A DNA stretch of 64,000 nt from an uncultured bacterium. Its GTDB lineage: Bacteria; Calescibacteriota; Calescibacteriia; Calescibacteriales; Calescibacteriaceae. The position numbers and the translations under genes are program-made. This document shows, piece by piece, positions 41,073 to 44,789 of the stretch. The notes beneath the pieces are model-generated. The model was not told where the DNA came from. It searched no databases and saw only the letters and a list, made by a program, of their open reading frames with translations. Where the stretch lies: NCBI GenBank assembly GCA_938036315.1, contig CALHPK010000006.1, forward strand, positions 1-64,000, read 5' to 3'. Positions within the stretch are counted from its first letter, which is position 1, and every line of letters starts with the position of its first letter.

Positions 41073-42734
41073 ATGAGATTGCGGAAGGGAAAAAAGCTCT
41101 TTCTTGTTCTTGGTTTTCTCTTCCTTGTTTACTGTGGTGCAGGGCGCCGAGAGGGAACTGAAGTCAATTTCTCAGTTGCGATCTGTAATTCCCTTAGTGT
41201 AGTTCAGGTCAGCAAGATACCCTTGGCCGATGGAACTACAACTTATCTAATAAATTGCCAGAGTTTAAGTGCTCAATCTGGAAATATAGCATTGATATTT
41301 TATTCCGATGGAGAAGTATCACTGGTTCCAATAGATCAGCGGGGAATAGATCTTACAAAGAAAGTTAAACTTCTTTCAGCAAAAGCTTTTCTGCATAGCG
41401 GGGGACAAATTGATTCAACTTATGAATCGAGCGGAAAAGACCTTATAATCTTTAAAAAGAACGTCCAGGAAGCCGATGTGTCGCTTGCCTATTTTGTATC
41501 AAAGGATTCGGGTTTTCTCAAATTTATTCTAGATGGATTATCTTCTATTGCTACTTATTCGGAGCTGATTAACAAGAAAAGTTATGTTTTTATCTATACC
41601 CAGCTTTCTGCAAAGAATCTGTCAAGCATTGTCTCTCCGATATTTGATGATGTCTTTCAACTTGTGCTGGGAAATTTAAAAGTAGGAGATTTGATTCTAA
41701 ACTTTCCAGATGTAGTAACACAGGGAGATAAGATTTTAATCTCTATTCCAAATCAATCTGCAGATATTGCTAGCGAAGTCCCTCCTTTACCGATAGTACT
41801 TCCAGAGATAAATTTTTCAACTATTTCTGATATTTCTGCTTCTTTGCCATACTACGAATTAGATCTAACCGAAACTTCTGTGAAGATTCCATTAGTTATG
41901 GGTAATGTTTCTAACATTTTGAATATTTTGTCTTTTCAGGATGGGATAATTTATTATGGTCGCACTCCTATTTTGTTTGAGGGTCGCATTCCAAAGCAGA
42001 TATCGGTCGGTATGGAGGTGATTCCACCAACTACCGCAGATGTAAATTCATCTATACACATTGCATTTCCTGATGGAGAGACATCTCTGGCAGTAGAAAT
42101 TTATTCCTTTTATCAAGGGGCTCCACTTCTTGTTTCGAGATCCCAAGTCTTCAAAGAGCGCCCTACTTTCCCCATCAGGATACCTCAGTTCCTTACTTCT
42201 GGAGCGTATTATGTTGCTATTCGTAGCGAGAAATCTGAGAAGACTGGTGAATTCGTGGTCAAGGATACATTTGCAAGATATGAAATAAGTCAAGTACCAT
42301 ACATAAGCTATAATGCAGATGGATTAAAAAGTGAACAATTTATTTTTGATGTTGCTCTATCACAGGAAAGCTTGAAACTTTCCTGGAGAATTCCAAATGA
42401 ACTAGATATCCAATCTATTGATCCTAATCTCAAGGTACTAATTCCTGAGTGTGTATCACAAAAGAGTGATAGAGAGTTTCTTAATTCAAAATGTATAACT
42501 TCTTATATAGATATATTTGCGGAAGACTCAAAGGGTGAGGAAGTTATTGTGTGGAGAATATATGGGCTTTTCAAAAGTAGCAGTGTGGTTTTGCCGAATT
42601 TCCTTTCGCGCACATTACTTTTTGATATTTTGAAATACGCACCACAGGTGAAGCTGAAAAAAGTAAGGCTCAATTATAATGCTTACTTTGGAAGCTCACT
42701 CCTTACGTTCAAAAGATCGTTCATCTTTGATTAG
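41073..42734 (+). CDS. Hypothetical lipoprotein
   Basis: A 553-residue predicted lipoprotein of unrecognised family. The N-terminus is basic then hydrophobic (RKGKKLFLVLGFLFLVYCGAG), with a lipobox-like LVYC and Cys21 as lipidation site. The mature part is rich in beta-strand-like segments with Ser and Ile, and has no repeat or catalytic motif that I can name. The ATG is four bases after the rng stop, so it is in the same operon, although nothing suggests a shared function. It is probably an outer-membrane-anchored surface or periplasmic protein. Confidence 0.75.
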   Translation: MRLRKGKKLFLVLGFLFLVYCGAGRREGTEVNFSVAICNSLSVVQVSKIPLADGTTTYLINCQSLSAQSGNIALIFYSDGEVSLVPIDQRGIDLTKKVKLLSAKAFLHSGGQIDSTYESSGKDLIIFKKNVQEADVSLAYFVSKDSGFLKFILDGLSSIATYSELINKKSYVFIYTQLSAKNLSSIVSPIFDDVFQLVLGNLKVGDLILNFPDVVTQGDKILISIPNQSADIASEVPPLPIVLPEINFSTISDISASLPYYELDLTETSVKIPLVMGNVSNILNILSFQDGIIYYGRTPILFEGRIPKQISVGMEVIPPTTADVNSSIHIAFPDGETSLAVEIYSFYQGAPLLVSRSQVFKERPTFPIRIPQFLTSGAYYVAIRSEKSEKTGEFVVKDTFARYEISQVPYISYNADGLKSEQFIFDVALSQESLKLSWRIPNELDIQSIDPNLKVLIPECVSQKSDREFLNSKCITSYIDIFAEDSKGEEVIVWRIYGLFKSSSVVLPNFLSRTLLFDILKYAPQVKLKKVRLNYNAYFGSSLLTFKRSFIFD

Positions 42735-42840: not shown

Positions 42841-43488
42841 TCAGCCAGAGGTGAGAGTGAATATTTTACCTTTTCTTAATCTTTCAGCTGAATTTACATC
42901 GTAGATTCCTGATAATTCCAATGAGACATATATATTGTCTGCCATTTCTTTTATTTTCTTTAATTTCCTGATCCCTGTCCTGTAGAGTTTACCTTCTAGC
43001 TCTATAAGTATTTCTTGATATTTTGTGAATTTTTGAATTTTTTCCTTTGGCACAACTGCAGCAACCGCTCCTTTGAGTCCGCGAGGTTTTGTTATCATAC
43101 CTATATATTCAAGTTGGGATGGCTCTATTTCACTGACTTCTTGTAAAAAATTGGGTAATATTCCTAATTCCATCTTGACCATCCGGGGAAGCTCTCTTTC
43201 TCTTATGTAGATATCGCAAGCTACTAAAGATTCTGCTTCTTCCCGTCTCCTGATCTTATCTAGAGAAAGTATTGCTGTGTTCCTTTTGTATATCTTTATT
43301 TTTCTGATCTTGAATTCTCTGAGTTCTTCTCTTCCTTCTTTTTCACCCGCCATCCTGATGAATAATCTTGAGGGGAATTTTTCGGCTGGAATATATCTTC
43401 TTATGAGAGCTATTACCTTACCTTTATCTCCATGTAGTTTTACAATGTATCCTATATAAAGATATTTTTCTCCGTTATATATCATCAC
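42841..43488 (-). CDS. RimM-like protein with duplicated N-terminal domain
   Basis: A 215-residue protein made of two RimM N-terminal-type barrels. The first (about 10-98) reads YIGYIVKLHGDKGKVIA, then LREFKIRKIKIYKRNTAILSL and EEAESLVACDIYI. The second (about 127-212) reads YIGMITKPRGLKGAVAA, then RTGIRKLKKIKEMADNIYVSL and NSAERLRKGKIFT. Both follow the RimM N-terminal layout: IGxIxxxxGxKG, a middle strand pair, and an AExL helix. The C-terminal PRC barrel of RimM, which contacts S19, is not visible. Neighbouring rpsP, trmD and rplS are absent. It may replace RimM or have a new role. Confidence 0.78.
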   Translation of the reverse strand: MMIYNGEKYLYIGYIVKLHGDKGKVIALIRRYIPAEKFPSRLFIRMAGEKEGREELREFKIRKIKIYKRNTAILSLDKIRRREEAESLVACDIYIRERELPRMVKMELGILPNFLQEVSEIEPSQLEYIGMITKPRGLKGAVAAVVPKEKIQKFTKYQEILIELEGKLYRTGIRKLKKIKEMADNIYVSLELSGIYDVNSAERLRKGKIFTLTSG

Positions 43489-43733
43489 TTAATTTTTAGT
43501 TAAGTGCAACGTAAAGGAGTTCTGATTTTTTCATTATACTTATACTTATATTTGCCAAAATCAAAAATTGCGCTAAAAGATCGATGGAATGGATATAAAG
43601 GTGTTTAAGTATAATGAAAAAGAAAAGGAATAATGGAGCAGAGACTGTAAGAATTGATACAGTTGAATATACTAAAGTAGAAATTTCTGAACTTATAATT
43701 GAAAGGTTTAGAAGTTTCTGCATTGCAATCAAA

Positions 43734-44789
43734 ATGATACATATGATTAGCAGGTTTATTAAAAATCGGTTTTTTATTATTGTTTTTTTGCTCTGTGCGG
43801 CGTGTACCGGAGCTGATACTGAGGTAGAGAGAAATTTTTCGCTTGCGGTGTGGGCAGAAAATCTCGACTATGAAGAATATGAAAAGATATATCCTGCGCT
43901 AAGTGAACTTGATGTTGAGCTTTACCTTGCAGTGAAAGAGGGAACCTTTCCTCATCCTTCCCTATCCAAAATGAAGTTTAGAGCGTGGCTTCTGCTAGAT
44001 AAAGAGAAGGGATATTGGCCTTCTGTGTGGAACGCAAAAGAATTTTTCAAGCTTGTAAAAAATTTTGTCTCATTATATAAAGATAAAATTAATTGGATTA
44101 TTTTCGATCTTGAACCTCCGTGGGAGATAGCCCTAAAGCTTTCTGACATCTTGGGAAACTTAGAATCAGTCACAGATGTGGCAAGATTTGCGTCTGAGCT
44201 TACGAGAATTTTCCCACCTCAGGAAATTTATGAAGAAGGTAAGTACTTGCTTAAGGAAATAGTTGAGTTCTTACACGAAAACGGACTGAAAGCCATGGTT
44301 GTTACTGTCCCCACAGTTATAGATGATTTTGAAGACGGCGATGATGATATACAGAAAAAACTCGGTTTACCAGTTGTAGGAATACCTTGGGATGAAGTTG
44401 CATTTATGCTTTACTCTACCGTGCCTAAAAAGATACTAAGAAAGTTGGTCAGAGCAGAGGTTGTTGAATCCGAATATTTTGTGTTTACATATGTAAAATC
44501 TGCACTCAACTTTTTCAGTAAAGAAAAGCTTAGTATCGGGATAGGACTTGTTGGGCAAGATCTTTTTGGAAATGAAGGATACCAATCCCCTGAAGAGATG
44601 AGAAAGGATATTGCAGCTGGGCTTGCAGCAGGGGTTAGTAAATTTCATATATGGACAGTTGATAATATGAAAAAAGATGGTAGACGGGATCTCACAACAT
44701 GGCTCGGTATCGGTTATGTTGAACCTTTAGCTCCTCAGCCAAATTCTGTAATCGATTCATTAAGATTGCTCTCAAAAATACTTGATTGA
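43734..44789 (+). CDS. Hypothetical lipoprotein, glycosyl-hydrolase-barrel-like
   Basis: A predicted lipoprotein of about 351 residues. From ATG 43734 or 43743 the signal is basic then hydrophobic (ISRFIKNRFFIIVFLLCAAC), with Cys24 as likely lipidation site. A longer frame from 43614 would add 40 soluble residues before the signal, which is unlikely; TATAAT at 43694-43699 could drive the shorter form. The mature protein has alternating strands and helices (LAVWAENLDYEEY, WIIFDLEPPWEIA, KAMVVTVPTV, KLSIGIGLVG, KFHIWTVDNM) resembling a TIM barrel. The family is unknown and catalytic acids cannot be assigned. Confidence 0.7.
   Translation: MIHMISRFIKNRFFIIVFLLCAACTGADTEVERNFSLAVWAENLDYEEYEKIYPALSELDVELYLAVKEGTFPHPSLSKMKFRAWLLLDKEKGYWPSVWNAKEFFKLVKNFVSLYKDKINWIIFDLEPPWEIALKLSDILGNLESVTDVARFASELTRIFPPQEIYEEGKYLLKEIVEFLHENGLKAMVVTVPTVIDDFEDGDDDIQKKLGLPVVGIPWDEVAFMLYSTVPKKILRKLVRAEVVESEYFVFTYVKSALNFFSKEKLSIGIGLVGQDLFGNEGYQSPEEMRKDIAAGLAAGVSKFHIWTVDNMKKDGRRDLTTWLGIGYVEPLAPQPNSVIDSLRLLSKILD

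Follow-up and report, generated by a model that had tools for sequence, protein, structure and literature searches.

The gene at positions 42841 to 43488 on the minus strand of the window (the whole 64,000-nucleotide stretch of DNA analyzed here) encodes a 215-amino-acid protein made of two RimM N-terminal barrels without a PRC barrel. This protein is probably the RimM of the Calescibacteriota, remodeled in the stem of the lineage by a swap of the PRC barrel for a second N barrel, such that two basic barrels would grip the rRNA. The two-N-domain RimM adds a new domain layout to a known factor, and a literature search thin on subscription papers, and so weak as evidence of novelty, returned no published account of one. 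Canonical RimM contacts uS19 through its PRC barrel and not through its N-domain (PMC8073977). The PRC barrel is regarded as the main ribosome-docking part of RimM and binds S19 even on its own (PMC8073977, PMC9032327, PMC13246957). Canonical RimM has a YY motif, and YY-to-AA changes in the PRC weaken 30S binding; RNA binding is tentatively ascribed to the N-domain, which has KH-like GxxG motifs (PMC9032327, PMC13246957). Loss of the S19-binding half together with doubling of the other half suggests a different grip on the growing ribosome. A lineage without a PRC, with an ordinary uS19 and a doubled N-domain, is a natural experiment on the little-studied N-domain of RimM.

The reading frame comprises 215 codons plus a stop and begins with the GTG at 43488 or, likelier by an alignment of relatives, with the ATG at 43485, the second codon. 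The first RimM N-terminal barrel (43195 to 43455, minus strand) spans residues ~12 to 98 and shows strands and a helix in the predicted model. It is followed by a linker (43132 to 43194, minus strand; residues ~99 to 119), LPRMVKMELGILPNFLQEVS, in which E-G-P-F-E is kept in all five genomes that carry the protein and the canonical YY-type PRC entry motif is missing. The second RimM N-terminal barrel (42856 to 43104, minus strand; residues ~129 to 211), IGMITKPRGLKG, occupies the usual position of the PRC barrel. The GxxG motif is kept in both barrels, as HGxKGK in the first (HGDKGK in the window's protein) and as RGLQG or RGLKG in the second. The gene is solitary, with one convergent and one divergent neighbor, and lies outside any ribosomal operon, so that gene context lends no support to a role as RimM. 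A scan for promoters and terminators gave sites no more numerous than in shuffles. The flanking open reading frames, at 41073 to 42734 (553 amino acids) and 43614 to 44789 (391 amino acids), have no Pfam match; by eye, both have a hydrophobic segment ending in a cysteine that resembles a lipoprotein signal.

Pfam matched the RimM N-domain (PF01782, E = 2.9e-19) in two stretches of the protein and found no PRC domain (PF05239 or PF24986) in it. When the halves were scored separately over the genome, both exceeded the 23.5-bit cut-off of PF01782, with 37.9 bits for the first and 36.1 bits for the second. The NCBIfam equivalog for 16S RimM, TIGR02273, also matched both halves, at 58.0 bits against a cut-off of 66.2, a shortfall to be expected since the C-terminal domain is absent. 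That this model narrowly misses the two-N-domain RimM is a caution for annotation pipelines. For a comparison independent of the curated models, we built canonical N and PRC profiles from 28 canonical RimMs (survey loci L038 to L067, two wrong frames dropped), split at the domain border. The canonical N-domain HMM scored 34.2 bits on the first barrel and 35.0 bits on the second, and the second had no PRC match. HHalign placed both halves with the canonical N-domains (E = 3.9e-13 and 4.5e-14) and with each other (E = 3.8e-6), and its probabilities for the canonical PRC were 1.3% and 0.3%, respectively. Across the homologues from all five genomes, the canonical N profile matched both halves at 18 to 39 bits per half. 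The canonical PRC HMM gave at most 4.1 bits on these proteins, versus 53 to 56 bits on two spirochaete RimMs outside the training set.

AlphaFold2, run on the full protein with a five-sequence alignment, predicted two similarly ordered barrels with a pLDDT of 87.5 and a pTM of 0.55, the latter meaning that the relative orientation of the barrels is uncertain. The best PDB matches to the full-protein model were RimMs. Modeled alone, the second half reached a pLDDT of 92 and a pTM of 0.83, and it resembled the N-domain of Thermus thermophilus RimM (2dog) with a TM score of 0.76 by target length, an rmsd of 2.2, and 21% identity. A PRC barrel hidden in the second half is thus ruled out by Pfam, by our own PRC HMM, by HHalign, and by fold, and the original prediction, which had seen the RimM N-terminal pattern in both halves and no PRC barrel, is confirmed on both points. 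Like canonical RimM (PF01782 plus PF24986; TIGR02273), the protein consists of two beta-barrels with a short linker, is present in a single copy per genome, and is of similar length (215 amino acids, compared to roughly 160 to 200), with the sequence, GxxG motif, and fold of the RimM N-domain here found in both halves. Unlike canonical RimM, it has a second N-domain in place of the PRC and its YY entry motif, its C-terminal half is basic and not acidic, and its gene is not beside rpsP or trmD. The same difference in layout separates it from the T. thermophilus RimM (full length, 2dyi; S19 complex, 3a1p), in which a single N-domain is followed by the S19-binding PRC.

Calescibacteriota is a hot-spring bacterial phylum, and the assembly that contains the window comprises 1.87 Mb in 32 contigs and is 85% complete. 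Each of the four other genomes of the family examined encodes a homologue, at about full length and with 44 to 50% identity (E = 1e-48 to 1e-54). An alignment-based scan of the genome collection recovered the four relatives; single-sequence patterns were too specific and gave none. The relatives include Candidatus Calescibacterium nevadense, Calescibacterium sp. SKYB43, and bacterium HR19 (Candidatus Calescibacteriota). Each has two N matches in one frame, both above the PF01782 cut-off as in the window's genome, and the protein is the sole RimM in all five genomes, which represent three genera. The same two-domain layout in four more genomes indicates that it is neither an assembly artifact nor a product of chance. 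In our survey of 290 genomes from ~220 families, the RimM N-domain was present in 201, and only these five had two full N domains, so RimM is not duplicated elsewhere in this sample. Two spirochaete loci that the collection scan returned as double-N candidates are both canonical RimMs with a PRC. An unrelated lineage (G226:C102:496-882; L068/L069) has a RimM N-domain that a long insertion interrupts between profile positions 40 and 47; its two matches come from the two pieces of this single domain, and it was rejected as a second double-N lineage.

A tree of 38 N-domains grouped each half into a clade of its own (support of 100/100 and 100/99), with a long stem of 1.8 to 2.0 changes per site, which makes the two-domain form older than the split of the five genomes. 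The tandem duplication of the original prediction is plausible as the origin of this form. The halves were not recovered as sister clades, but forced sisterhood was not rejected (p-AU = 0.31), so that both a tandem duplication and a fusion with a foreign N-domain are possible. Between the two closest genomes (G001 and G003), dN/dS was ~0.12 overall, 0.15 in the first half, and 0.09 in the second, which for this one genome pair shows both halves to be maintained by purifying selection.

In the five genomes, the net charge ranges from +7 to +14 in the first half and from +4 to +8 in the second; canonical N-domains have a mean of +1 and canonical PRC domains a mean of -7, with a range of -13 to -1. 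uS19 was found in all five genomes with strong family scores, and its sequence appears ordinary in the four genomes that were read. The GxxG motif in both barrels, a basic second half compared to an acidic PRC, and the ordinary uS19 are most simply read as an rRNA contact made by two barrels. Against this reading, proteins of thermophiles are often basic. We propose that the PRC barrel was lost in the lineage stem and that a second RimM N-terminal barrel came to stand in its place. Two basic barrels would then hold rRNA, instead of an acidic PRC barrel docking onto uS19, with rRNA contacts substituting for the uS19 contact, and the protein would still be active in 30S maturation. The main contact with the 30S head would most likely run via rRNA and not uS19, and it is a reasonable inference, made already in the original prediction, that this architecture alters ribosome binding in 30S maturation.

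Other maturation factors were also sought. RimP was found in all five Calescibacteriota genomes. RbfA (PF02033) had no match in any of the five (G000 to G004) by a search that matched all 10 bacterial controls, and none was seen beside rimP at the loci read, where the operons are scattered; its absence could be real or due to divergence. RbfA is a genetic partner of RimM, and in Escherichia coli raised RbfA gene dosage offsets the loss of RimM (PMC9032327). With RbfA not detected, the 30S maturation pathway may be reorganized, which weighs against our main reading. We raise tentatively, as a possibility, that the whole phylum builds the 30S head without a PRC-uS19 contact or a recognizable RbfA, by means of a two-N-domain rRNA clamp.

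An alternative that we consider unlikely is that the lineage gave up RimM and co-opted the two-N protein to bind RNA in some other role. The long stems of both halves, a gene that stands alone with no ribosomal neighbors, and the lack of an RbfA match would fit it, as would the 89 of 290 sampled genomes without a RimM match, by which the absence of a recognizable RimM is not rare. It accords poorly with the GxxG motifs in both barrels, with the occurrence of the protein in all five genomes, and with the partial match that the RimM equivalog model still gives. We judge it quite improbable that the protein is a functional RimM whose second N barrel took over uS19 binding, leaving unchanged the mechanism of protein docking by the C barrel and rRNA contact by the N barrel. 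The second half does lie in the PRC position and is slightly more conserved than the first (mean pairwise identity of 57% versus 51%), and uS19 itself is unchanged. However, S19 is not a partner of canonical N-domains (PMC8073977), and a second half that is basic where the PRC is acidic is a poor fit to uS19, a basic ribosomal protein.

The original prediction had also raised the question of a normal rimM elsewhere in the genome. No full-length rimM was found elsewhere in the window's genome or in the four relatives, no RimM-type PRC domain (PF24986) scored above cut-off in any of the five, and no general PRC domain (PF05239) did so in the window's genome. There, trmD lies between rpe and gmk (named from translations) with no rimM beside it, and at the rpsP loci read, two genomes have khpA, encoding a KH protein, after rpsP and the rest have unrelated genes there, again without an adjacent rimM. 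A canonical RimM in the unassembled part of the genome, with the two-N protein as its paralogue, is very improbable: the five assemblies are 82 to 86% complete (85, 86, 86, 82, and 85%), which would allow for it, but it needs an independent absence in all five, for which our own arithmetic, assuming independence, gives a chance of ~8e-5, and both the PRC search and the rpsP and trmD loci speak against it. The translation operons rimP-nusA-infB-rbfA and rpsP-khpA-rimM-trmD are usually conserved; both are scattered in Calescibacteriota (L080 to L083, L020, and L075 to L079).

The G-HG-G segment of the first half also gave a weak match to the ribosomal protein eL33/L35Ae (PF01247, E = 1.2e-4), at 22.6 bits against a cut-off of 27, so that the two-N protein is not a member of that family. 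We take eL33/L35Ae and the RimM N-domain to belong to the same translation-protein barrel superfamily (SCOP); eL33 and RimM carry the two half-barrels in opposite orders. Among the papers searched, none named both eL33 and RimM. We compared the eL33 profile with the protein encoded at 42841 to 43488 and with six canonical RimMs (L041, L047, L056, L063, L066, and L067), in natural order and circularly permuted. With permuted N-domains, the profile was colinear over most of its length in six of seven cases, with E-values of 2.8e-4 to 7e-3. In natural order the E-values were poorer, at 7e-3 to 6e-2, or there was no match, and all of these scores are below the Pfam cut-off. This better colinear fit suggests that eL33 is a circular permutant of the RimM barrel.
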